The position numbers were made by a program, and so were the translations under genes. This document shows positions 37,366 to 50,640 of a stretch of 64,000 bases of DNA, one piece after another (position 1 is the stretch's first letter; each line of letters begins with the position of its first letter). Under the pieces are notes generated by a model, which saw nothing but the letters and a program-made list of their open reading frames with translations, did not search any database and was not told where the DNA came from. The stretch is from Oxalobacteraceae bacterium (GTDB taxonomy: Bacteria > Pseudomonadota > Gammaproteobacteria > Burkholderiales > Burkholderiaceae_D). Location: assembly GCA_900299005.1 (NCBI GenBank), contig OMID01000042.1:1-64000 (forward strand), in the 5' to 3' direction.

Positions 37366-38415
37366 TTACCAGATTGCCTTGCCGTTCGCATCTTTCAGGT
37401 TGGCTTTCCAGCTCTCCTGAATCAGTTTGACAGTCCCTGCGGGCATCGGCACGTAGTCGAGCTCAGTTGCCATGCCAGCGCCGTTCTTGTAGGCCCAGTC
37501 GAAGAATTTCAACACCGCGCGACCCGTCAAGGCTTCTGGCTGAGCCTTGTGCATCAGGATGAACGAGGCACCTGTCGCAGGCCAGCTGTTTTTACCGGCT
37601 TGGTTCGTAAGCACCACGCCCATGCCGGGCGTACCTGCCCAGTCAGCGCTCGACGCGGCGGACTTGAAGGTCTCATCATCGGGCAGAACAAATTCACCAT
37701 CCCGGTTTTTCAGCTGGGCGAAAGCGATTTTATTTTTCTTGGCGTAGGCATATTCCACGTAGCCGAACGCTCCCTTGACGCGCTGGACGTTGGCAGCGAC
37801 ACCCTCGTTGCCCTTGCCACCGACGCCAGTTGGCCATTTAACGGCGGTGCCGGAACCCACGGTATTCTTGAAATCAGCGTTTGCCTTGGAAAGGTAATCG
37901 GTCCACAGGAAGGTAGTGCCGGAGCCGTCAGCGCGGTGAACCACCGTGATGTTCAGACTTGGCAGAGTCACGCCCGTGTTCAGCGCAGCGATTTCGGGTG
38001 CATTCCATTTGGTGATCTTGCCGAGGTGGATGCCGGCAATAACCTCAGCCGTCAGCTTCAGCTGACCTGGCGCAATGCCGTCCAGATTAAAGACGGGAAC
38101 CACGCCGCCGATGATGGCGGGGAATTGAATCAGGCCTTCCTTCTCCAGCTCGTCCGCCTTGAGTGGCATGTCCGACGCACCGAAATCCACGGTCTTGGCC
38201 TTGATCTGGCGGATACCGCCGCCTGATCCGATGGACTGATAGTTCAGCCCAATGCCGGTCGCGGCTTTGTAAGCCTCGGCCCACTTGGAATAAATCGGGT
38301 ACGGGAAGGTGGCGCCAGCACCCGTCAGGTCGGCGGCCTCAACGGACAGGCACATGGCCAGCCCTGCGGCGAAAGCGGTAATACCTTTCAGAATTTGCTT
38401 GCTACGCATAGTCAC
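37366..38415 (-). CDS. pstS: Phosphate ABC transporter substrate-binding protein PstS
   Basis: 349 residues with a Sec signal (GITAFAAGLAMCLSVEAA) and the mature start LTGAGATFPYPIYSKW, the classical PstS signature. Phosphate-contacting segments are SIGSGGGIRQI, DFGASDMPL and VHRADGSGTTF. It captures phosphate in the periplasm for PstCAB, whose genes lie 23 kb away. An AGGAGT ribosome-binding site lies 4 bp before the ATG, immediately beyond which a 104-bp MITE-like element (38429-38532) separates the coding region from the Pho box at 38579-38596. Confidence 0.95.
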   Translation of the reverse strand: MTMRSKQILKGITAFAAGLAMCLSVEAADLTGAGATFPYPIYSKWAEAYKAATGIGLNYQSIGSGGGIRQIKAKTVDFGASDMPLKADELEKEGLIQFPAIIGGVVPVFNLDGIAPGQLKLTAEVIAGIHLGKITKWNAPEIAALNTGVTLPSLNITVVHRADGSGTTFLWTDYLSKANADFKNTVGSGTAVKWPTGVGGKGNEGVAANVQRVKGAFGYVEYAYAKKNKIAFAQLKNRDGEFVLPDDETFKSAASSADWAGTPGMGVVLTNQAGKNSWPATGASFILMHKAQPEALTGRAVLKFFDWAYKNGAGMATELDYVPMPAGTVKLIQESWKANLKDANGKAIW

Positions 38416-38532: not shown

Positions 38533-38578
38533 GTGGTGGGTTGTACAAAAATTTATGGTGAGACTGTAGAGGGCGCAT

Positions 38579-38596
38579 GTGTCAGCTGTATGACAG
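38579..38596 (-). promoter_or_regulatory. Pho box for pstS
   Basis: On the minus strand: CTGTCAT-ACAG-CTGACAC, two heptamers 4 bp apart, the first a perfect match to the PhoB consensus. A TACAGT -10 candidate follows 10 bp later, as in PhoB-activated promoters that lack a -35. Confidence 0.8.
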
Positions 38597-38617
38597 GATT
38601 TTCAGTTTGAAAATTTC

Positions 38618-38635
38618 CTGTAATGATGTTGTCAC
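38618..38635 (+). promoter_or_regulatory. Pho box for ppk-sixA
   Basis: CTGTAAT-GATG-TTGTCAC, two heptamers 4 bp apart, each one mismatch or two from CTGTCAT. A TATAAG -10 candidate lies 8 bp after it. It is back-to-back with the pstS Pho box, 22 bp apart, so PhoB may activate both directions from one region. Confidence 0.7.
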
Positions 38636-38657
38636 CGGCGTTTTATAAGCTTGGCAC

Positions 38658-40775
38658 ATGACAGGGAATCGACATAGCAAATCGATAAGCATGGCGCATG
38701 CAGATGCGCCCATGGCGGGCCGAAATGCGCCGTTGGCGCTACTGACGCCGCTGAATCGAGAGTTATCGCTGCTGGCGTTCAATTGGCGTGTGCTCGCACA
38801 GGCGCAGGACGAGAACACCCCCTTGCTGGAGCGTCTGAAGTTCCTGTGCATCGTCAGCAGCAATCTCGACGAGTTCTTCGAAGTTCGAATCGCCAGCCTG
38901 ATGGCCAGGGAGCGCGAGGGAAGTCAGACTGACCGTCCTCTTGTACCGCCGGGGTTTGAGCTGGTGGGTCCGGCCGCACAGGCGCTCGTGCAGGCGCAGT
39001 ACTCGACACTCAATGACGAGATCCTTCCAGCGCTGGCAAAACAAGGTATTCATCTGCGACGCCACGTCGACCGCAATGAGGTGCAGCGAGCCTGGGTGAG
39101 GGGGTATTTTGATCGGGAGGTTCGGCCACTGCTCACGCCTATTGTCCTGGATCCTTCGCACCCATTTCCCCAGATAGTCAACAAGAGCTTGAATTTCATC
39201 GTCGAGCTCGGGGGCAAAGATGCGTACGGAAGGGGTACCTCAATCGCAGTCATTAAGGCACCCCGCGTGCTGCCGCGGATCATACGACTCCCTTCGGCAT
39301 CGTCGGGTGCTGAGGACGAGTACTGCCTGCTGTCATCCGTGATACATGCGCATATTGAAGATCTTTTCCCCGGACGCCAGGTGATCAGTTATTCTCAATT
39401 CCGTGTCACTCGTGATAGCGATCTGTGGGTCGATGAAGAAGAAGTAAAGAACTTGCGGCAGGCTCTGAAGGGCGAATTGCAGACACGTCATTTCGGTTTT
39501 GCTGTCCGGCTGGAGGTTGCCGAGAATTGTCCGCAGAATCTTTCGCAATTCTTGCTAGATCAGTTCACTATCGCGCCGGAATTTCTTTACCGGGTTAATG
39601 GTCCGGTGAACATGGTTCGTCTGAACGAACTGGTTGATCTGGCCTCCGAACCCGAATTCCGATTTGCGCCATTCACCCCCAAGCTTTCAGTGCAGCTAGA
39701 CGACGGCGATCTATTCGCAGAGATCGCGCGGAATGATATCTTGCTTCATCACCCCTACCAGTCATTCCAGCCTGTGATCGATTTCATCCGCAGCGCCGCG
39801 ACAGACCCGGCCGTCGTAGCGATCAAGCAGACTATCTACCGCACTGGCATGAACTCCGAGCTGATGGAGGCGCTGATCGCTGCAGCGCAGAACCGTAAAG
39901 AAGTGACGGTAGTTGTGGAACTGATGGCGCGTTTTGATGAAGAGGCCAACATCAACTGGGCGGATCGGCTCGAAAAGGTCGGCGCGCAAGTCGTTTACGG
40001 GGTGGTGGGTCTGAAGACACACGCCAAGATGGCATTGGTGATACGACGCGAATCCGGCAAGTTGCGATATTACGCGCACATGGGCACTGGTAATTATCAT
40101 CCCTCGACCACCAAGTTTTACACCGACTTCGGTTTGCTCACGGCCAACCCGGTGCTGGGCAGAGAGGTAAACGAAGTTTTCATCAGCCTGACCAGTCTGG
40201 CCAAGCCGCGAAAGCTGCAGCACCTGTGGGTGGCACCCTTCGACCTGCAGCGCGAACTGGTAAGGGCGATTCGCAATGAGACACGCATCGCCCGCGAAGG
40301 GGGTGTCGGGCAGATCATCGCCAAGATGAATGCGCTGCTTGATGATTCCATCATCGAGGCACTGTATGAAGCTTCACAGGCTGGTGTCAAGATCGAGCTG
40401 ATCGTTCGTGGGGCATGCTCATTGCGTCCGGGTGTCCCCGGCTTATCAGACAATATTCGGGTGCGGTCCATCGTTGGACGTTTTCTGGAACACAGTCGCA
40501 TCTTCAACTTCCTCAGCGAAGGCGCAAATGAGGTTTATCTGGCCAGTGCAGACTGGATGAACCGGAATCTTTTCCGACGAATCGAGATCGCTTTTCCGGT
40601 GTTTGATGAAGCCCTGAAAAAGCGCGTGATTCAGGAAGGTTTGCAACCTTATCTCAGGGACAACCAGCATGCATGGGAGCTGAGTGCCAATGGCGAGTAC
40701 CATCGTCGCAAGCCCCGCGTGGGGCAGCAGCCATTTAGTGCGCAGCAGCACCTGATCACTACTCTGGGGGCATGA
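38658..40775 (+). CDS. ppk: Polyphosphate kinase 1
   Basis: 705 residues from ATG 38658; ATG 38691 is equally plausible because a Pho-type promoter just upstream would otherwise give almost no leader. The N-terminal domain has LLAFNWRVL and NLDEFFEVR. The phosphorylated-His region HMGTGNYHPSTTKFYTDFG is near residue 475, and the second catalytic-domain motif is LRPGVPGLSDNIRVRSIVGRFLEHSRI. It reversibly builds polyphosphate from ATP. It is coupled to sixA through ATGA and faces pstS across opposed Pho boxes, so phosphate limitation should induce it. Confidence 0.95.
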   Translation: MTGNRHSKSISMAHADAPMAGRNAPLALLTPLNRELSLLAFNWRVLAQAQDENTPLLERLKFLCIVSSNLDEFFEVRIASLMAREREGSQTDRPLVPPGFELVGPAAQALVQAQYSTLNDEILPALAKQGIHLRRHVDRNEVQRAWVRGYFDREVRPLLTPIVLDPSHPFPQIVNKSLNFIVELGGKDAYGRGTSIAVIKAPRVLPRIIRLPSASSGAEDEYCLLSSVIHAHIEDLFPGRQVISYSQFRVTRDSDLWVDEEEVKNLRQALKGELQTRHFGFAVRLEVAENCPQNLSQFLLDQFTIAPEFLYRVNGPVNMVRLNELVDLASEPEFRFAPFTPKLSVQLDDGDLFAEIARNDILLHHPYQSFQPVIDFIRSAATDPAVVAIKQTIYRTGMNSELMEALIAAAQNRKEVTVVVELMARFDEEANINWADRLEKVGAQVVYGVVGLKTHAKMALVIRRESGKLRYYAHMGTGNYHPSTTKFYTDFGLLTANPVLGREVNEVFISLTSLAKPRKLQHLWVAPFDLQRELVRAIRNETRIAREGGVGQIIAKMNALLDDSIIEALYEASQAGVKIELIVRGACSLRPGVPGLSDNIRVRSIVGRFLEHSRIFNFLSEGANEVYLASADWMNRNLFRRIEIAFPVFDEALKKRVIQEGLQPYLRDNQHAWELSANGEYHRRKPRVGQQPFSAQQHLITTLGA

Positions 40776-41515: not shown

Positions 41516-41914
41516 TCATGCCGCCAGCGCTGCTGCGGCCAATTCACCGCGCTCTAGCGCCTTGCGCACCACCTTGTCCGGCTTGAACAAATCAATCAGT
41601 GCGTCGATCAGTCCTGACGCTTTGTGGCTGTTATCCATCGAGTAATTACATACATAAACATCGAGGGTTACTGCGACTAGCTCCGGCCAGGTATGGATGG
41701 CCAGATGTGATTCAGCAAGCAATACAGTGCCCGTGACCCCACCCGAGTCTTTGCCACTGGCCGCTGGAAATTCAAAAAAGACGTCGCTGACCGCCGTTAA
41801 TCCACTCAACTCGACAAGCGTCAGGCAAGTGCTGCGCAATGTGGAGGCGTCCGTCATCAGGCCGCGATTCATGCGGCAACCGGCGATGTCAGCAGTGAGA
41901 TGAAGTCCTTGCAT
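41516..41914 (-). CDS. speD: S-adenosylmethionine decarboxylase proenzyme
   Basis: 132 residues from ATG 41914 behind GAGGAA. The self-cleavage site that makes the pyruvoyl group is the Ser of LAESHLAIHTWPE near residue 65, and the conserved Cys lies in VYVCNYS. The short length fits the class 1B bacterial and archaeal enzyme. It supplies decarboxylated SAM for spermidine synthesis; speE is not adjacent. The next gene upstream in the same direction encodes a Lys/Ala-rich protein. Confidence 0.9.
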   Translation of the reverse strand: MQGLHLTADIAGCRMNRGLMTDASTLRSTCLTLVELSGLTAVSDVFFEFPAASGKDSGGVTGTVLLAESHLAIHTWPELVAVTLDVYVCNYSMDNSHKASGLIDALIDLFKPDKVVRKALERGELAAAALAA

Positions 41915-41990
41915 TTCGAATTCCTCGTTGAATAAGAAAAGGCAACCTACCCGGTATTGCGACACCGGGGAAAGGAGCTCGGGAACGGGT

Positions 41991-42365
41991 TTATTTGTGT
42001 TTCTTTGGACGTCCGGTTTTTACCGGCTGAAGAGTTTGCTGCGCTTCCTTGAGCTCTGATGTCGTCAACTCATAGGCTAATGCGATACCGATACGGATGA
42101 GCTCGCTTTTCTTGATTTCAAAACCTGCCTCAAGGCAGATCTTTTTTGTTTCGGCCAGAAGCGCGTACTCATCCTCAGGGATGGTGAAGCTATCCCGGAT
42201 CAAACGCGCGTGCTTGTGCTTGGCCGGTTGAGATTTACTACTGTCTTTCTGCTTGGATGACGTGGAGTTTCCTGAAGCAGCGGCCTTTCTGGCAGCGGGC
42301 ATCTTACTAGAACGACGTGCGCCTGCAATCTTTTTTGCAGCCGTCTTCTTGGGTGTGTCCGACAT
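41991..42365 (-). CDS. Lys/Ala-rich protein with a possible ribbon-helix-helix-like tail
   Basis: 124 residues from ATG 42365. The first 55 are a histone H1-like run of Lys, Ala and Ser (TPKKTAAKKIAGARRSSK and similar), which would bind nucleic acid without structure. The C-terminal part, RDSFTIPEDEYALLAETKK followed by FEIKKSELIRIGIALA, has a short strand and two helices resembling a ribbon-helix-helix repressor. It ends in basic GRPKKHK. No named family; a nucleoid-associated or regulatory role is inference. It lies 76 bp upstream of speD in the same direction. Confidence 0.65.
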   Translation of the reverse strand: MSDTPKKTAAKKIAGARRSSKMPAARKAAASGNSTSSKQKDSSKSQPAKHKHARLIRDSFTIPEDEYALLAETKKICLEAGFEIKKSELIRIGIALAYELTTSELKEAQQTLQPVKTGRPKKHK

Positions 42366-42734
42366 GGTCATGCTCCACAAGGCTCGGTACTTAAATTTAA
42401 TATAAACAGTTTATACGGTATTTTTATTTTTATCTACAATAGTGACGACGCGCCGGGACTGAGGAGTGTTGTTGTATGGCAACACGCGAGCAGCAATTAC
42501 TTCCCCGGTCAGCGGGGGCGTGCGCTTATGGCGACTCGTGCGCTTCATTTGCAAAAATGAAAAAATAGCAATCGCACTATCGCTCAGAGGCGGGCAAGTC
42601 GGTCGCCCAAGGGCGTCATTCCAGTGCGTCTTCGAGCGAAATTCATGGCCGCAGGGGCCGTGCGTTCAGAGTGCTCGAACGAGCAGAATGGTCATCTGCA
42701 GCAGCGTGTGGCAGACGCTGTGTTGTTCGTTAGT
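42366..42734. other. Gene-free region between two leftward units
   Basis: 369 bp. A/T-rich near 42390-42440, which probably holds the promoter for the Lys/Ala-rich protein gene and speD. A plus-strand frame (42466-42741) is not protein-like. No terminator with a clear T-run was seen for the lipid operon that ends at 42735. Confidence 0.4.
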
Positions 42735-43223
42735 TTATTGATTGGGCTGGCTGTAAGACAGTGACATCAGCCACAGCCCCAGCGGCGTGAATATCCAGTA
42801 CTCGACTGGGGCACCCCACAGCCAGTGCTTGTGCCAGCCTGCCTGCGTCTTTTCAAAGCGTGCGAGACCGAACGCCGGATTCAGCAAAAACCACAGAAAA
42901 TCTTCCACCACCCAAAAAAGCATGATGCAGGCGATGACCCGCAACTCCGCGTGCCATGTGTAGTTGGCGTTAAACACCATAGGAAAATGAAACATCAGCG
43001 CGACCAGAGAAAACGCCCACGCGTGGTAGCCCGTCATTGCGCGCCCACCCCAAAGCAAATCCAGCAGCCAGTGATGCTCTATCCGCCAAGTGGGCAGATT
43101 CTCAGCCCAGCCGGCATCACCTTCGATCGCGATTTCCAGCTTGGCGAAAAAAAACGCCAGAGAGACTACCCCGAGCAAGGTGATGGTGACAGGAGTGAAC
43201 ACGTGACTCACGTGGGTAATCAT
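42735..43223 (-). CDS. Unknown four-helix membrane protein of the lipid-remodelling operon
   Basis: 162 residues. Four hydrophobic helices: VTITLLGVVSLAFFFAKLEI, WAFSLVALMFHFPMVF, LRVIACIMLFWVVEDFLWFL and YWIFTPLGLWLMSLS. Between them lie many His, Trp and acidic residues (RIEHHWLLDLLWGG, NYTWHAELR, VVEDFLWF, WHKHWLWGAPVEYW), more than a passive membrane anchor needs, so a metal site or lipid-active site is possible. No family recognised. The start overlaps the glycosyltransferase stop as ATGA, making it the last gene of the olsB-plcP-glycosyltransferase operon under a Pho box. A role in phosphorus-free membrane lipid synthesis is inferred from position only. Confidence 0.75.
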   Translation of the reverse strand: MITHVSHVFTPVTITLLGVVSLAFFFAKLEIAIEGDAGWAENLPTWRIEHHWLLDLLWGGRAMTGYHAWAFSLVALMFHFPMVFNANYTWHAELRVIACIMLFWVVEDFLWFLLNPAFGLARFEKTQAGWHKHWLWGAPVEYWIFTPLGLWLMSLSYSQPNQ

Positions 43224-44455
43224 CGTGACATACTTTTTTGCACGTGCTGCAAGACCCGATGTGCGGCATGAGGTTGGGCTAACAAGGATGTTTTTGAGTG
43301 CATTTCTCGTAATGCCTCCGGATCGCTCAGTAAGCGACGCAAACGATAGATCAGTGTTGCCTCATCGTCGGCGCGTTGGGCAACCCCTTCCTGCAGTAGC
43401 AGGGTGGCATTCCGTTCTTCCTGGCCAGGTATCGGATTGATCAGCAGCATAGGCAGGCCCATCACCAGACACTCAGAGGTGCTCAGCCCGCCGGGTTTGG
43501 TAATAACAAGATCTGCGCAGGCCATCAGTTCAGGGACTTGGTCGGTATAACCGACAGGCACGAGTCGTCCATCACAAAAGCAGCTCAGTGATACGAGCTC
43601 ATCAAACAGGGTCTGGTTGCGTCCGGTCATCACGATCAATTGCGTCAATGGGTCGATAGCCAGTAGAGAAGCAATCAGCTTTTTATTCATGCCAATACCA
43701 GCGCCACCACCCATCAGCAACAAGGTGGTCCGGTTCGGATCCAGACCACGCATTGCGCTGCAGTGTTCGCGCCGAGTTGGTTGCGAGAAGCCTGGCATGA
43801 CGGGGATACCCGTGACGACGATACGCGACTCGTCGATGCCTGCGGCAAGCAGACGGTAGGCTAGCTCCTCGTTTGCAACAAAATAACCGGTAACACCCTG
43901 ATGTAACCACATCTGGTGCAAATCAAAATCGGTCACCACGACCCACACCGGGCACTGCAGTCGTCCACGATGTACGGCATCTGAGAGGAGCTCTGCCGGT
44001 AAGAAATGCGTGCAGATGATCGCGTCCGGAGCAAATGCTGCGATCTCGATAAACAGTGCTCGCGTACAAACGCGTTGGATCAAGCGGCGAAGTCGGCCAC
44101 TCAGGCTGTTCGTGGGTTCGCGGTCGGTCCTGCGATATAGCCAGCCCCAGGCCTCAGGTAGTCCACTGGCCAGTGTCAGATACAGATCTGTATAGATTTT
44201 TCTGAACCAAGCGGGTACCCGCTGCATCAAGTCGCGATGACGCAGAGACATATCAGGATAATGCTGCTGCGCGTGAGCACACAGGGCCTCTGCGGCGCGC
44301 ACATGCCCACTACCCGCTGAGACTGAAACGACCAGAATTTTTTTTGTACCGCTGACTGAGCAGTCGTTGAGTGACTGAGTCACACGGGGCGCTGCAGTCA
44401 CGTGAAAAGCGGGCGTTGCAGCGCGTAGCCGAACCTTCAGGCGAGTTCCGGACAA
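43220..44455 (-). CDS. Diacylglycerol glycosyltransferase, MGDG synthase-like (GT28)
   Basis: Up to 411 residues. The TTG at 44455 has AAGGAA 8 bp upstream and overlaps the plcP end; GTG 44383 is an alternative. The N-terminal MGDG-synthase domain has VVSVSAGSGHVRAAEAL and VVTDFDLHQMWLHQGVTGYFV. The C-terminal GT28 domain has MGGGAGIGMNKK and the sugar-nucleotide site LVITKPGGLSTSECLVMGLP. Relatives make mono- or diglycosyl-diacylglycerol in plastids and Gram-positive bacteria. Placed directly after plcP, whose product releases diacylglycerol, it should cap that lipid with a sugar to replace phospholipids. Sugar donor and linkage are unknown. Confidence 0.85.
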   Translation of the reverse strand: MSGTRLKVRLRAATPAFHVTAAPRVTQSLNDCSVSGTKKILVVSVSAGSGHVRAAEALCAHAQQHYPDMSLRHRDLMQRVPAWFRKIYTDLYLTLASGLPEAWGWLYRRTDREPTNSLSGRLRRLIQRVCTRALFIEIAAFAPDAIICTHFLPAELLSDAVHRGRLQCPVWVVVTDFDLHQMWLHQGVTGYFVANEELAYRLLAAGIDESRIVVTGIPVMPGFSQPTRREHCSAMRGLDPNRTTLLLMGGGAGIGMNKKLIASLLAIDPLTQLIVMTGRNQTLFDELVSLSCFCDGRLVPVGYTDQVPELMACADLVITKPGGLSTSECLVMGLPMLLINPIPGQEERNATLLLQEGVAQRADDEATLIYRLRRLLSDPEALREMHSKTSLLAQPHAAHRVLQHVQKSMSR

Positions 44456-45297
44456 AATACCGATTCCTTTTTCACGAATTGCGCCTTCTCCCAGCGCAGC
44501 ATGATGTCATGCCAATCGACCAAGTGAAGTTCGCCAATCTCATCTTCTACCAGCGCTGAGAGGCTCTCGACCCAGTCGCCGTCATTGCAATAGAGAATAC
44601 CGTTGATGTCGCGTATCTCGGCTTTGTGGATATGACCGCAAATCACACCATCCACGCCTTGTTTACGTGCCTCGGTAGCCAGCGCATCTTCGAACGAGGT
44701 GATGTAGCTGACCGCATTTTTGACCTTAAGCTTCAGATATTGCGATAGCGACCAGTAGGGTAGGCCGGCGCGGGCACGCCAGCCGTTGTAGACCTGATTG
44801 AATTTCAGGATCATCGTGTACAGGGAGTCGCCAACGTAGGCGAGCCACTTCGCACAGGCGATGACACCGTCAAACCGGTCGCCGTGAAGTACCAGCATGC
44901 GTTTACCTTTGGCAGTGACATGAACGTGCTCATCACGTATCTTGATACCGCCAAAGTCAAGGCCGATGAACTGACGAACCATCTCATCATGGTTACCTGG
45001 CACAAAAATTACCTGAGTCCCTTTCTTTGCTTTTTTTAGCACCAGCTGAACAACATCATTGTGTGTTTGATGCCAGTACCACCGTCGCTTGAGCTGCCAG
45101 CCGTCGACAATATCGCCGACGAGATAAAGCTTATCTGATTCCGTGGCTTTCAGAAATTCCAGTAGGCGTTTTGCCTGACAACCGCTGGTGCCGAGGTGAA
45201 CGTCAGATATCCAGATAGTGCGGAAGCGAAGAGGGCGAGGTTTTTTGATCAGCGATTTTGATAATTTCTCAAAGCTGAAAGATTCCCGAGAGTTCAT
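44437..45297 (-). CDS. plcP: PlcP-type phospholipase C (calcineurin-like metallophosphoesterase)
   Basis: 286 residues from ATG 45297 (ATGA overlap with olsB). Metallophosphoesterase motifs are in order: IWISDVHLGTSGCQAKRLLE, YLVGDIVDGW, FVPGNHDEMVR, LVLHGDRFD and VICGHIHKAEI. The wording DGWQLKRRWYWHQTHNDVVQ and YWSLSQYLKLKVKNAV is that of the PlcP family, usually annotated as UDP-2,3-diacylglucosamine diphosphatase but shown in Sinorhizobium and marine bacteria to degrade phosphatidylcholine/-ethanolamine/-glycerol to diacylglycerol under phosphate starvation. True LpxH is shorter (about 240 residues). No signal; it acts on the inner face of the cytoplasmic membrane. The Pho box and glycosyltransferase partner support PlcP over LpxH. 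Confidence 0.85.
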   Translation of the reverse strand: MNSRESFSFEKLSKSLIKKPRPLRFRTIWISDVHLGTSGCQAKRLLEFLKATESDKLYLVGDIVDGWQLKRRWYWHQTHNDVVQLVLKKAKKGTQVIFVPGNHDEMVRQFIGLDFGGIKIRDEHVHVTAKGKRMLVLHGDRFDGVIACAKWLAYVGDSLYTMILKFNQVYNGWRARAGLPYWSLSQYLKLKVKNAVSYITSFEDALATEARKQGVDGVICGHIHKAEIRDINGILYCNDGDWVESLSALVEDEIGELHLVDWHDIMLRWEKAQFVKKESVFCPELA

Positions 45298-46061
45298 GCG
45301 GGCTCGAACTCCTTGAGATAGTGCCGCGCGTAGCGGCTGTCGAGCCGGGATAAGGGCAGCATCATGAATAGATCGGCACTGTGGAAATCCGGATCCCATG
45401 CGGGTTCACCACAAATCCAGGCACCGCTGCGCAGATAGCCTTTAATCAATGCCGGTACTTGCAGGTCTTCGGAGAGAGGATCATCGTGCAACGGGAAGGG
45501 CAAACGGGGCGTTACCCGATATTCTGACGGACTGAGATTTTCTTTTGCCAGCTGACGGTAGAGAGCGTTGATCGTATATCCGCCGTCGGCCAGACTGACG
45601 CTGGCACAGCCGATCAGGAACTCGGCTTTCTCGCGTCGCATGCAGGCCGCCAATCCGGCCCACAGCATCAGGATCACGCCGCCGCTACGGTAGTCCGGAT
45701 GGATGCAGGCGCGACCAGCTTCGATGATGCGTGGTCGGAGATGGGCCAGACGACTGAGGTCGAATTCTTTTTCGGCGTAGAAGGCTCGCGCTTCTGTCAG
45801 GGTACTCGGCGTGAGAACACGGTAAGTGCCAACGACTTCAAGGGTTCTGGTGTCTCGGACAATCAGATGATCACAAATTTCATCAAATTCGTCCTGCTCC
45901 AGACCTTCATGATTTTTCAGTGTCTCCAGACCCATCGCCTCGACGAAGACTTTGTAGCGAAGGCGCTGCACTTCGCGTATTTCCTCGGGGGTGCTGGCAA
46001 GGCTGAGACTGAGTTTAGGGAAGCTGGCCGTAGAATCGGCGCCGACTGCCATCACTCGCAT
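45294..46061 (-). CDS. olsB: Ornithine-lipid N-acyltransferase OlsB-like
   Basis: 255 residues from ATG 46061, with AAAGAGGAG upstream. A GNAT-fold acyltransferase: QRLRYKVFVEAMG near residue 30, DHLIVRD, EAGRACIHPDYRSGGVILMLWAG, FLIGCAS, then the C-terminal PALIKGYLRSGAWICGEPAWDPDF and DLFMMLPLSRLDSRYARHY. This layout is that of OlsB, which transfers a 3-hydroxyacyl chain from ACP to ornithine; the product becomes phosphorus-free ornithine lipid after OlsA action. OlsA is not in the window. Other GNAT N-acyl-amino acid synthases look similar, so the amino acid is not certain. First gene of the operon, 56 bp after a three-heptamer Pho box. Confidence 0.82.
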   Translation of the reverse strand: MRVMAVGADSTASFPKLSLSLASTPEEIREVQRLRYKVFVEAMGLETLKNHEGLEQDEFDEICDHLIVRDTRTLEVVGTYRVLTPSTLTEARAFYAEKEFDLSRLAHLRPRIIEAGRACIHPDYRSGGVILMLWAGLAACMRREKAEFLIGCASVSLADGGYTINALYRQLAKENLSPSEYRVTPRLPFPLHDDPLSEDLQVPALIKGYLRSGAWICGEPAWDPDFHSADLFMMLPLSRLDSRYARHYLKEFEPA

Positions 46062-46116
46062 TGCTGCTCCTCTTTGTAATGATGCGCAAAGAGTAAGCCT
46101 GCAATACTGCAAGCTG

Positions 46117-46145
46117 ATGACAATCCGATGTCGGTTTCGTTACAG
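46117..46145 (-). promoter_or_regulatory. Three-heptamer Pho box for the olsB-plcP-glycosyltransferase operon
   Basis: Minus strand: CTGTAAC-GAAA-CCGACAT-CGGA-TTGTCAT, three heptamers on an exact 11-bp period, each 5-6 of 7 to CTGTCAT. A TATTGC -10 candidate follows 10 bp later. It lies in the 97-bp gap between the phoX stop and olsB. Confidence 0.78.
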
Positions 46146-46158
46146 CAAGCGCATGCAA

Positions 46159-48345
46159 TCAAGTCCAGTCTGCGCCAATTGGCCCGCCATCGTCACGGGT
46201 GATCACAATGGTGGCCGAGCGCGGCCTGGCATTGCCGCCGGCTGGCCAGTGGCTGAGATAGGTGTCGGGCCGTGTGATATCGAAGCCTTGATCGTTGGTG
46301 GTTTCACCCGGATGTTGGATATTCACGAATAACGCGCGGCCATCCGGTGTCTCGGTGATGCCGGTGATTTCGCAATCAACTGGCCCCACCAGAAAGCGTC
46401 GCAAGCGCTCATCCCCTGGCGCAGCACCCACGTAGGTCGCTATTTTGCTTTCCTTGCCGTTGTCGTTGTTGACGACTTCCTTGCGGACGCCGTCGCCGAC
46501 CTGGCCTGGGATCGCGGCCAGCAGCATGCAATTGGTTTTGTCTCGGTATGCATGGTCATCGGTCTCCACCCACAGTAGGCCGCTGCGGGCAAACCACAGG
46601 CCATCGGGACTGGAGAAGTCATTGTCGGCCGATAGTCCCGAAAGATTGATGTTGTCGCGATCGGCCGTTGAACGTGCTGCGAACAGAAACACATCCCATT
46701 GGAAATGCGTCGCTGATCCCTTGCCATCTTTCTCGGCCCAGCGAATGATGTGGCCATTCGCATTGCCTTTCTGCGCAATACCGTTCTTGGGATCATTGTA
46801 GAAACGCGGGTTCGCTGCATCAACCTTGTCCAGCGCGCGCGATGGATTGTAGGTGAGCGTCATGTACACCTCGCCGTTGGCCGGATTGACCGCGCCCCAT
46901 TCGGGGCGATCCATTTTGGTTGCACCCAGTGCGTCGGCCGCCAGACGCGCATTGATCAAGACATCTGCCTGATCAGCGAAGCTGTAGGGGGTGTGGGTGC
47001 GGTCGAGCCCGCTCTGCCCGTGCTTGAGCTCGAGCCAGTCGCCGCTGCCATCGGCATTGAAACGTGCCACATAGAGCTTGCCATCATTGAGATATTTGTC
47101 GCCTGCGATCATCCCGCGACCCATATCTCGCGGATCCCAAAGCGCATTCGACACATATTTGTAGATGTATTCGTGACGCGAGTCACAGCCCATGTACCAC
47201 ACCAGCGGCTGGCCGGGAATAACGAGGCCCGGCCATGCGCCTTCATGCGCAAAGCGTCCCAGTGCAGTGCGTTTTTTCGGGGTTGACTGCGGATTGAATG
47301 GATCGATCTCAACAACCCAACCGAAGGTATTCGGGCCGTTTCGGTAATCATCGCTGCCATCTCGGGAGCTTCCCTGCACTGAGGCGTCCCAGCGTCCAAA
47401 GCGGTTGTCGCTAGTGTCTTGCTGTACAGTCTCCCAGAGATGCCAGCTCCGTGCACCGATTCCATAGCGCTTGAACGAAGTCAGCTCTTTGGGGCTACGC
47501 TTGCTGTCATCCGAGGCGTGACGGCTGAAAAAAAAGGCCCAGTTTTCCTCACAGGTGAGATAGGTGCCCCACGGCGTATGGCCGTTGGAGCAATTGTTCA
47601 GCGTGCCACGGGTGCGGCTACCGTCAGTGGCGTATTTTGTGACCATCATGCGGCTGCGCGCCGCGGGGCCATCGAATTCCATCTCGGTGAGTGTGGTGAT
47701 GCGGCGATTCAAACGCGATCCGCGATTGACCTCGAATCCTCTTGGCCCTTTTCTTACCTCGACGATCGATACACCCATCCCCAGCATTTCTTTCAGCACT
47801 TCGCCGTCGACAGTACGCTTGTTGTCGACGATGGTCTGCCCGGTCGGATGCAGGAAGGCGGCAGTGACGTTTTCATGGTTCACACACAGCAGTCCCTGCT
47901 CCGATACGGTGGGATTCCAGCTACCGCTCTTGTTCATGCCGAAAAAATGCATGCCATCGTTATGGTCGCCCGCGCGGCGGTTGAAGCTCTCAGGGGAGTC
48001 GGTGCCATCATTCGCATAATCAGGCACATCTGCGGCGATCGGGTCCCCGGTTTGCAGCACGACCCGGTATGAGTAACCTGCTGCCAGCGAGACGCGATCG
48101 GCCGTGCTCTTGGCCACAGCCGTAAAATTTAATTTCAGGCGTCGCGACGCGGCTTGAGTGTCCCCGGAGGCATTCAAGAGCAAGCTACTGCCGCCGAGGT
48201 ACATGGCCGCCGCCGCGCCGAACGAGCCTTTGAGCAGTTCGCGACGCGATAGTCGGGCCGTGAGGATCTGAGTGAATTCGGGGTTGCTGGACGTATTCTC
48301 GGTGTCGTTCAGCGCGTCATTCGCCAGGCCTGGCTCGGGGTTCAT
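46159..48345 (-). CDS. phoX: Alkaline phosphatase PhoX (DUF839 family)
   Basis: 728 residues from ATG 48345, which has GGAG 6 bp upstream; ATG 48357 is four codons earlier. A Tat signal is present (LSRRELLKGSFGAAAAMYLGG). The mature protein is a large beta-propeller with the PhoX/DUF839 wording: VNHENVTAAFLHP, MGVSIVEVRKG, CSNGHTPWGTYLTCEENW, EGAWPGLVIPGQPLVWYMGCDSRHEY, SSPDGLWFARSGLLWVETDD and near the end DCEITGITETPDGRALFVNIQHPGE. PhoX binds calcium and iron and releases phosphate from organic phosphomonoesters in the periplasm. No clear Pho box was found before it; a weak one-heptamer match (ATGTCAT) lies about 100 bp upstream. Confidence 0.92.
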   Translation of the reverse strand: MNPEPGLANDALNDTENTSSNPEFTQILTARLSRRELLKGSFGAAAAMYLGGSSLLLNASGDTQAASRRLKLNFTAVAKSTADRVSLAAGYSYRVVLQTGDPIAADVPDYANDGTDSPESFNRRAGDHNDGMHFFGMNKSGSWNPTVSEQGLLCVNHENVTAAFLHPTGQTIVDNKRTVDGEVLKEMLGMGVSIVEVRKGPRGFEVNRGSRLNRRITTLTEMEFDGPAARSRMMVTKYATDGSRTRGTLNNCSNGHTPWGTYLTCEENWAFFFSRHASDDSKRSPKELTSFKRYGIGARSWHLWETVQQDTSDNRFGRWDASVQGSSRDGSDDYRNGPNTFGWVVEIDPFNPQSTPKKRTALGRFAHEGAWPGLVIPGQPLVWYMGCDSRHEYIYKYVSNALWDPRDMGRGMIAGDKYLNDGKLYVARFNADGSGDWLELKHGQSGLDRTHTPYSFADQADVLINARLAADALGATKMDRPEWGAVNPANGEVYMTLTYNPSRALDKVDAANPRFYNDPKNGIAQKGNANGHIIRWAEKDGKGSATHFQWDVFLFAARSTADRDNINLSGLSADNDFSSPDGLWFARSGLLWVETDDHAYRDKTNCMLLAAIPGQVGDGVRKEVVNNDNGKESKIATYVGAAPGDERLRRFLVGPVDCEITGITETPDGRALFVNIQHPGETTNDQGFDITRPDTYLSHWPAGGNARPRSATIVITRDDGGPIGADWT

Positions 48346-48459
48346 CTGCTTCTCCATGAGTGAAGGTTTTCGCTGATCAGATCAGACGAATGTTAAACCA
48401 TCATGAATGATGGGATGGGCTGTCATCGGCAGGCAATATTCCTCGGATAGGCTCATGAC

Positions 48460-49185: not shown

Positions 49186-50640
49186 TCAGTGGTTCCTGAT
49201 GGTCATCAGGATGTCAATCTCTGCCCATGCGGCTTCTTCTTTGACCAGCCAGTGAATCAGGGTGGGATGTTGTCGAGCGATCTGTGCAGGCAGATCGAGC
49301 TCGATCTTTTGTCTCATCTTCAGTCGAACCGGCTGCTCGTTCAAGTCGATGCGGGAGTGGCTAAAGAGTATCCCCAGCCTCAGCGCGAGGATGGCTTTTG
49401 CCATATCAGGCAGTGCAATCGCGTCAGATACCTTGCGCAGATTTCCCTTCTGCGAGAGCAGCAAAATACTGAGAATGTGCTGCTCCTGTTTGGTGAATCC
49501 TGGCAGATCGGCGTTGAGGGCCAGATAGGCACCATGCTTGTGGAAGCCGCTATGCGAGACCGACATTCCGACCTCATGCATACAAGCGGCCCACCCCAGC
49601 AGCTTATCGTAGTGTTCGCTCTCAGGCTGAAGTAGCGCGTGCAGCGCAAGACTATTTTGCTTCACCCGGTTGGCACGTGTCTGGTTGACCCCAAATTTTC
49701 TGGCAAATTCTTTGACCGAGTCGCGTCGCCGGTCACGGCTGCTGCGGCGCAGGTGCAGATCCCACAATACGCCCATGCGCAAGCCGGCCTCGATGGCGTG
49801 CATCTCCCTTATTCCCAGTTCTTCGCACAGTCCTATCAGCACTGGCAAACCGCCGAGCACGACGGCGATGCGATCCGGTTTGATCCCGACGAGATCGATG
49901 TGACTGGCGCGACCGCAAGAGAGCAGATAATCTCGCAGCGCGCGCAGGTTCTTGAGAGACAGGCTGCCATCGCCAAGCTCGTTGGTTGCGATGAGGTCGG
50001 CCAGTGTGCGAATCGTGCCGGAGGAACCCAAGGCGATTGTCCACAGCCGGGGGAAAAATGCGTCGAGGCGGTCCTCGAACACACTGCGCGCACGAAGCAC
50101 TGCTCCGGCAAATGCAGATTCCGTGATTCTGTCTCCCCCGAAGAATTCGAGGGCGGTTTTGACCGTGCCTATGCCGAAGGATTCGACTTGCTCAATGTGG
50201 TTGCCATGGCCGAGTACCAGTTCGGTTGAACCACCGCCAATATCGACTACCAGCCGCCGTTCGCCAGCATCGTCCAGCGAACTGGCAACCCCCAGGTAGA
50301 TCAGCCGACCTTCTTCTTCTCCCGAGAGGATTTCGATGGGACATCCGATGGCTTTCTCTGCCAGTGGAAGAAAACTGTCGCGGTTTTTCGCGATGCGTAG
50401 TGTGTTGGTGCCCACCACACGAACGGCCGAGAGCGGCTGAGAGTGGAGTATTTCACCAAAGCGGCGCAGGCAAGCGAGGGCGGTGTCCATCGCGGCTGCG
50501 GTCAGGTTGCCACGCTTGTCGAGTCCTGCCCCCAACCTCACGGGTTCCCTTGCAGTTTTCAGTATTCTGATGCGCTCGCCATCGAAATGTCCGATGTGCA
50601 AACGAAAACTGTTCGATCCGAGATCGACGGCTGCGAGCAT
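49186..50640 (-). CDS. ppx: Exopolyphosphatase (Ppx/GppA family)
   Basis: 484 residues. Actin-like ASKHA motifs: AVDLGSNSFRLHIG at the N-terminus, SGEEEGRLIYLG with the catalytic Glu, VVDIGGGSTELVLG, and the C-terminal HD-type helical domain (MHEVGMSVSHSGFHKHGAYL). Length and the extra C-terminal domain match Ppx rather than the shorter archaeal-type enzyme; GppA activity on pppGpp cannot be excluded. It removes terminal phosphate from polyphosphate and thus opposes ppk, 9 kb away. The gap to the next gene (50641-50969) has no recognised Pho box. Confidence 0.92.
   Translation of the reverse strand: MLAAVDLGSNSFRLHIGHFDGERIRILKTAREPVRLGAGLDKRGNLTAAAMDTALACLRRFGEILHSQPLSAVRVVGTNTLRIAKNRDSFLPLAEKAIGCPIEILSGEEEGRLIYLGVASSLDDAGERRLVVDIGGGSTELVLGHGNHIEQVESFGIGTVKTALEFFGGDRITESAFAGAVLRARSVFEDRLDAFFPRLWTIALGSSGTIRTLADLIATNELGDGSLSLKNLRALRDYLLSCGRASHIDLVGIKPDRIAVVLGGLPVLIGLCEELGIREMHAIEAGLRMGVLWDLHLRRSSRDRRRDSVKEFARKFGVNQTRANRVKQNSLALHALLQPESEHYDKLLGWAACMHEVGMSVSHSGFHKHGAYLALNADLPGFTKQEQHILSILLLSQKGNLRKVSDAIALPDMAKAILALRLGILFSHSRIDLNEQPVRLKMRQKIELDLPAQIARQHPTLIHWLVKEEAAWAEIDILMTIRNH

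Follow-up and report, generated by a model that had tools for sequence, protein, structure and literature searches.

A four-helix membrane protein linked to an MGDG-synthase-type glycosyltransferase in a probably Pho-controlled lipid-remodelling operon of an Oxalobacteraceae bacterium

What does a small membrane protein without a named family do as the last gene of a probable operon for the replacement of membrane lipids? The question is raised by contig OMID01000042.1 of an Oxalobacteraceae bacterium (assembly GCA_900299005.1), of which positions 1 to 64,000 of the forward strand were analysed (64,000 nucleotides, hereafter the window). Four minus-strand genes spanning 46061-42735 encode, in order, an OlsB-like acyltransferase, a PlcP-like protein, a glycosyltransferase of the monogalactosyldiacylglycerol (MGDG) synthase type (GT28) and a 162-residue membrane protein that we call MEM (Table 1). 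A first, sequence-only reading of this DNA had described four leftward, overlapping genes, and this was confirmed. The olsB/plcP and GT28/MEM overlaps are 4 nucleotides (nt) each, and that of plcP and GT28 is 19 nt provided that TTG 44455 is the real start of GT28, for which in-frame GTG codons at 44401 and 44383 are alternatives. The analysis below indicates that the operon is very probably a Pho-controlled unit for membrane-lipid replacement and that MEM is probably the functional partner of GT28.

The company kept by MEM was surveyed within the phylum of the window, with the order, class and phylum of some genomes inferred from named relatives. Two peptide patterns returned 335 relatives of MEM in GTDB genomes; the best 80 loci were kept, so the set leans to close relatives. 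Three of these loci (L047-L049) are copies in one assembly, and several contigs end within the neighbourhood. GT28 lies directly upstream of MEM on the same strand at 79 of the 80, and the two genes share a 4-nt stop/start overlap at 33 of the 58 loci measured. The exception, L062, has no GT28 near MEM but carries a GT28 gene elsewhere in the genome. An open reading frame in L101 that looked like a GT28-MEM fusion was rejected: similarity to GT28 is split over two stretches that lie in different frames, so the joint frame looks like an artefact. PlcP relatives with more than 60% identity were present within the fetched flanks of 28 loci and missing from 52; OlsB accompanies these 28 on the same strand in 14 cases and on the opposite strand in five, and is lacking in nine. 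A DSP-type phosphatase gene lies downstream at 19 of the 80 loci and a more distant plcP paralogue at one, and 32 loci have none of these genes. MEM is thus partnered with the glycosyltransferase rather than with PlcP or PhoB. The sequence-only reading had suggested a search for the protein next to plcP in other genomes, and the 28 loci show it there; its proviso that the protein might turn up mainly away from lipid genes was settled in its favour by the 79 loci with GT28. A PhoB-specific or PlcP-specific role for MEM was discarded, the majority of GT28-MEM pairs having neither.

Presence and absence across genomes agreed with this linkage. Among 300 genomes of the order, MEM was found in 11 and the family PF06925 in 21; all 11 fall within the 21, at adjacent coordinates (Fisher p ~1e-14, with genomes that are not independent). 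The same nesting was seen in 56 relatives, where all 23 genomes with MEM are among the 24 with PF06925. Of 397 genomes of the phylum, five have MEM.

Phosphate control was examined upstream of the same genes. The sequence-only reading had reported three Pho heptamers on an exact 11-bp period with a −10 element, and this was borne out. The heptamers are separated by 4-bp spacers, and against the consensus heptamer CTGTCAT the triple has the joint best score on both strands of the 64-kb window; the score of 16 is equalled at one other place (13659, plus strand). For comparison among loci, the best site in each upstream region was ranked against 200 random stretches from the same locus, with a threshold of p≤0.05. 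The test took in 80 of 85 regions, five being left out because they lay near a contig end or lacked a needed match, and L047-L049 were counted as glycosyltransferase-led, since their PlcP and GT28 genes are separated by another gene. A site passed upstream of 11 of the 12 olsB-plcP-GT-MEM operons, the window included; the sole failure, L029 (p 0.07), shows on visual inspection a block of this kind where it would be expected. In nine of the 12 operons the site begins at −85 by script count (84 nt before the ATG in the window), and in two others at −86 or −87. TACGCT or TACTCT stands at about the equivalent place of the −10-like element in nine of these 12 regions, and TANNNT in all 12, as judged by eye. 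A conserved heptamer repeat of 11-bp period, as in Pho-regulon promoters, thus precedes the operon. The proportion was 5/9 for plcP-led operons, 1/2 for MEM-only loci and only 7/57 for glycosyltransferase-led units. These seven include three from Collimonas, two with the site at −39 (L067 and L078) and one with it elsewhere (L095); L113 has a like site at −39, but with p 0.06. The predicted phosphate control therefore belongs mainly to the PlcP-containing form and not to the GT28-MEM pair.

The three enzymes were assigned with differing firmness. The OlsB-like protein matches Pfam Acetyltransf_5 above the cut-off (122.7 bits) and is the single such match in the genome, but reaches only 157.6 bits against the equivalog cut-off of 350 for NCBIfam OlsB (NF052554) and is therefore named OlsB-like only. 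We infer that it carries out the first step of ornithine-lipid synthesis. One of the two PF01553 acyltransferases of the genome, on another contig, is nearest the OlsA models (125.7 bits, cut-off 300). In Acinetobacter baumannii, olsB is Pho-induced with a predicted Pho box and olsA is unlinked and not phosphate-regulated, according to the available part of PMC11828411; a separate OlsA-like gene is therefore no obstacle here. The PlcP-like protein matches Pfam Metallophos (50.4 bits) and is 53.6% identical over 84% to a plasmid-borne protein of Pseudomonas aeruginosa, whose gene overlaps the next gene, a glycosyltransferase, by 4 nt. We take this plasmid pair to correspond to the published PA3219-PA3218 pair, partly by presumption and partly from the gene order in print. 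In P. aeruginosa, agt1 (PA3218) is immediately downstream of PA3219 (PMC8528852, available part). The identity of PlcP is thus well supported, by its relation as a metallophosphoesterase to a characterised PlcP and by the lipid glycosyltransferase gene that comes after its own, and phospholipase C activity is predicted. GT28 matches Pfam MGDG_synth (95.6 bits, cut-off 25) and Glyco_tran_28_C (38.2 bits, cut-off 22), and its nearest solved structures by phmmer are a processive diacylglycerol glucosyltransferase (9wde) and MGD1 (4wyi). It scores 212.9 bits against a cut-off of 500 for the UgtP-type diglucosyl-diacylglycerol synthase of NCBIfam (NF010135). The OlsB-like and MGDG/UgtP-like assignments thus hold at the Pfam level only. 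The earlier proposal of an operon that joins these three enzymes under Pho control is supported as probable, with the control itself a prediction.

We then turned to MEM. The proposed conserved, His/Trp-rich protein without a named family was recovered as such: the window protein had no match in Pfam, NCBIfam, PHROGs or PDB sequence searches, and 41 columns are invariant over 60 sequences. Family-wide scans gave weak, scattered matches only, all of which were discounted: an NCBIfam carnitine antiporter (E 0.0013, 1/18 members), NCBIfam small_EYxxD (E 0.27, 2/18), Pfam DUF760 (E 0.06, 1/18) and EngB from the PDB profile search (E 1.5). A viral or mobile origin was also set aside, with no relative in viral_contigs and no PHROGs match; only four plasmid records carry MEM, all from Burkholderia or Caballeronia. 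An AlphaFold2 model from the 60-row alignment (mean pLDDT 87, pTM 0.83) upheld the four-helix prediction, with helices at residues 2-34, 65-84, 90-114 and 140-156; its least certain inner part is loop 1, with block means of 65-66 for residues 41-60. Sixteen of the invariant columns lie in loop 1 and seven in loop 3, and the majority of the rest are at the adjoining helix ends (E30, E34, G65-A68, E107, D108, L110-F112, Y142 and W143); R95, F78, F103 and W104 sit elsewhere. Relative to loop 1 (2.18 per 34 residues) and loop 3 (2.5 per 28), Lys and Arg are enriched at the N-terminus (1.22 per 11.3), in loop 2 (1.78 per 14) and at the C-terminus (1.7 per 8.9). By the positive-inside rule this modest difference suggests that loops 1 and 3 face the periplasm. 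Fold searches gave nothing convincing, with a best E of 0.87 in Foldseek and a best Z of 4.1 over 88 chains in VIA-align; YetJ, the SSU processome, connexins and other candidates reached Z 4.1 or less.

How could such a protein serve a glycolipid enzyme? PlcP yields diacylglycerol, GT28 glycosylates it, and OlsB and OlsA together make ornithine lipid. In phosphate starvation PhoB would turn on the operon, and PlcP would remove phospholipid head groups to give diacylglycerol, which GT28 would glycosylate at the cytoplasmic face. OlsB would begin the synthesis of ornithine lipid, for an OlsA-like enzyme encoded elsewhere to complete. MEM, as the dedicated partner of GT28, would move glycosyl-diacylglycerol into the periplasmic leaflet and bind its sugar head through acidic, His and Trp residues that are conserved in the two large loops. 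We propose this translocation tentatively, as the likeliest single role of MEM though short of an even chance, because MEM forms an old two-gene unit with GT28, its conserved residues are presumed periplasmic, and proposed flippases that accompany glycosyltransferases offer parallels. Computation shows the order of the genes, their families, the conservation of the Pho site and of MEM, the linkage and co-occurrence of GT28 with MEM, and a helical model; the substrates, the orientation of MEM and its action are inferences.

Several observations weigh against translocation of the GT28 product. The charge bias of MEM is only modest (as in loop 3), the invariant R95 is situated towards loop 2, off the conserved cluster, and neither Foldseek nor VIA-align gave a match that marks MEM as a transporter or an enzyme. 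Genome G222 (locus L112), whose completeness is 100%, encodes a relative of MEM that shares 47% identity and the core residues with the window protein, and it has no PF06925 match at all, so the basic activity of MEM cannot need GT28. Conversely, 10 of the 21 PF06925-positive genomes of the order are without MEM, four of them with partial, weak matches only; GT28 enzymes therefore have no general need of MEM. The distance correlation also fails to single out GT28, with r 0.66 for MEM-GT28 (n=58), 0.88 for MEM-OlsB (13 loci) and 0.42 for MEM-PlcP (24). The divergent MEM gene of G222 (L112 8115-8564), which has an M50-type peptidase gene as a neighbour, could be a way to learn what MEM basically does; among 289 genomes of its class MEM was found only there, a short match in G660 (E 0.0075) being discounted.

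The alternative that fares best, though it is on the unlikely side, is a membrane enzyme that alters the head group of the glycolipid on the periplasmic side, by a reaction such as acylation, hydrolysis or transfer. The sequence-only reading had suggested a lipid-modifying or a lipid-flipping component, and no homology or fold match decides between the two. Invariant acidic, His and aromatic residues suit an enzyme as well as a carrier, and the Glu, Asp, His, Arg, Asn, Tyr and Trp in or beside loops 1 and 3 resemble a site of catalysis or of sugar binding. At the 19 loci mentioned above the third gene is phosphatase-like, with an export-like N-terminus in 14 of the 15 proteins read. However, MEM matches no known enzyme family or fold, and H131 is not strictly kept, being Gln in L096. 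It is rather improbable that MEM is a mere anchor or activator holding a peripheral GT28 at the membrane. Strict adjacency and the frequent 4-nt overlap are what complex subunits would show, but the conserved residues are mostly on the predicted periplasmic side, away from a cytoplasmic enzyme, and an anchor accords poorly both with the PF06925 genomes that manage without MEM and with G222. Still less probable is a membrane-embedded lipid phosphatase or lipase that feeds diacylglycerol to GT28. The supply of diacylglycerol does seem important, since GT28 units occur repeatedly with PlcP, DSP-type or APP1 genes, and 31 of the 80 loci have GT28-MEM without PlcP, OlsB or DSP genes in the fetched flanks; such a MEM would nevertheless be redundant beside PlcP or the DSP-type protein, and PAP2 and the other lipid phosphatase families of Pfam gave no match to it. 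Some other role altogether seems very improbable.

Translocation by MEM would fit a pair whose other neighbours change. In Burkholderia and Caballeronia, GT28-MEM is followed by the DSP-type phosphatase gene (L110 10449-11739), and in Caballeronia L110 and L111 a YdcF/DUF218 gene also follows the pair. The L110 protein matches tyrosine-phosphatase families; of the 21 DSP-type proteins 15 were read correctly, 14 of them with a hydrophobic N-terminal segment and all 15 with an HCx5R motif, so that this phosphatase is probably exported. Two of the six fetched GT28 loci without MEM (L118 7425-8288 and L120 4701-5675) have an APP1 phosphatidate phosphatase gene beside GT28, with a signal-like N-terminal stretch only in the protein of L120; a Wadjet JetD gene is directly upstream in L118. 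The companion thus varies among PlcP, DSP-type and APP1 proteins, so GT28 keeps lipid-type company while the companion changes. The gene order is PlcP, GT4, GT28, MEM in Noviherbaspirillum autotrophicum, whose assembly holds three such copies (L047, L048 and L049). Their GT28 rows are identical, and the copies may stem either from genuine amplification or from the assembly. In Luteibacter, a gammaproteobacterium, the pair lies between genes read from their sequence as polyphosphate kinase and exopolyphosphatase. On a midpoint-rooted GT28 tree of 89 rows, in which some branches are long and the joins unsure, the MEM-less L117, L118 and L120 branch outside the group that holds all MEM-bearing rows, and the MEM-less L119, L121 and L122 are nested inside it, like losses. 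The tree requires three changes for PlcP linkage, five for DSP linkage and four for the lack of MEM.

Comparison with known systems was limited to the parts of the cited papers available to us. In the PlcP-Agt renovation of P. aeruginosa, Methylosinus and marine bacteria, plcP likewise directly precedes the glycosyltransferase gene, and induction by phosphate shortage and glycolipid replacement are described (PMC8528852, PMC9239053, PMC4796936). Here, in contrast, a GT28/MGDG-type enzyme replaces Agt, an OlsB-like gene is in the operon and MEM is a fourth gene. Pairings of PlcP with non-Agt glycosyltransferases have been published before, as plcP types 3 and 5 (PMC4796936) and in type Ia methanotrophs (PMC9239053). 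In Agrobacterium tumefaciens the routes of ornithine lipid, glycolipid and PlcP exist together, and Pho boxes are predicted ahead of olsB and pgt; both lipid routes are under PhoB in this one organism, but at separate loci: its olsB (atu0344) and plcP (atu1649) are unlinked, and the available text does not mention MEM (PMC3972451). A. baumannii olsB has a Pho box as here, and no olsB-plcP operon is mentioned in the part of that paper available (PMC11828411). Nor did such an operon come up in the literature searches aimed at it, which gave a single review that has olsB and plcP apart, or in the olsB passages of PMC9239053 and PMC3972451. Of what had been called an unusual combination, the non-Agt pairing is known already, and so is the control of both routes by PhoB in one organism, Agrobacterium.

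One parallel to the proposed role of MEM is HexSDF of Clostridioides difficile, in which the predicted MGDG-synthase-type HexS shares an operon with the proposed glycolipid flippase HexF (PMC10128005, available part). HexF is MprF-like, whereas MEM has no Pfam match tying it to MprF, and phosphate control and PlcP are not mentioned for HexSDF in that part. GtrA/GtcA proteins are also small four-helix membrane proteins that act with a glycosyltransferase and are proposed to flip lipid-linked sugars, but their carrier is C55-P and not diacylglycerol (PMC7389260, available part). Membership of MEM in the GtrA family was rejected, with no Pfam match and an HHalign probability of 0.3% against 12 GtrA sequences. 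As far as tested, MEM appears homologous to neither type, the basis for MprF being the missing Pfam match only. GT28 shares the MGDG_synth domain with B. subtilis UgtP and plant MGD1 but falls below the equivalog cut-off for the UgtP type, as given above. No paper on MEM came out of the literature searches, whether these concerned similar partner proteins, GT28 in Burkholderia or the protein itself, a nameless family being hard to search for. The operon with both routes is a new variation on known lipid remodelling, and MEM is an uncharacterised family.

Phosphate genes surround the operon in the window. Beyond the PhoX gene directly upstream there is a Ppx/GppA gene (49186-50640) and, on the other side, pstS (37366-38415), identified by Pfam or NCBIfam, and a 705-residue protein (38658-40775) that we take to be polyphosphate kinase. 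The interval between pstS and this divergent gene (38560-38690) contains several Pho-like heptamers, overlapping and on both strands, which make a shared PhoB region probable there, as a prediction. A comparable island lies on a Mitsuaria plasmid, where the annotation places ppk1 and a Ppx/GppA gene after a PlcP relative (65% identity). In the window, the operon is closely followed on its own strand (41516-42380) by genes for a SpeD-type S-adenosylmethionine decarboxylase and a 129-residue protein that has no match in Pfam or NCBIfam.

Table 1. Features of the operon and its promoter region, in window coordinates.
Feature	Position	Strand	Basis
PhoX alkaline phosphatase, directly upstream of the operon	46159..48357	-	Pfam PhoX 450.4 bits
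Three Pho heptamers (CTGTAAC, CCGACAT, TTGTCAT), predicted PhoB-binding site	46117..46145	-	Score 16/21, conserved position
-10-like element TACTCT	46090..46095	-	Sequence
Ribosome-binding site AGAGGAG, ahead of the olsB-like ATG at 46061	46067..46073	-	Sequence
OlsB-like GNAT acyltransferase, 255 residues	45294..46061	-	Pfam Acetyltransf_5; NCBIfam OlsB below cut-off
PlcP-type phospholipase C (predicted; metallophosphoesterase), 286 residues	44437..45297	-	Pfam Metallophos; P. aeruginosa relative
MGDG-synthase/UgtP-type (GT28) diacylglycerol glycosyltransferase, 411 residues from TTG 44455	43220..44455	-	Pfam MGDG_synth and Glyco_tran_28_C
MEM, four-helix membrane protein without a named family, 162 residues	42735..43223	-	AlphaFold2 model; linkage to GT28

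How Gram-negative bacteria starved of phosphate bring glycolipids made inside the cell to the outer leaflet or to the outer membrane is not explained in the PlcP papers searched, and the word flippase occurs 0 times in PMC8528852, PMC9239053, PMC3972451 and PMC4796936. MEM, small, conserved and tied to one glycolipid enzyme, is a direct and testable candidate for that step. In the related genomes examined it nearly always stands directly behind one type of glycolipid enzyme, so it probably belongs to glycolipid biology as a part that has yet to be studied, and the loci show one enzyme-membrane protein pair joined to differing phosphatase or phospholipase genes. MEM may found a new family of dedicated diacylglycerol-glycolipid translocators in Gram-negative bacteria, a suggestion that we make with reserve, in which an ancestral GT28-MEM pair would have been supplemented in different lineages by Pho control and PlcP or by an exported phosphatase.

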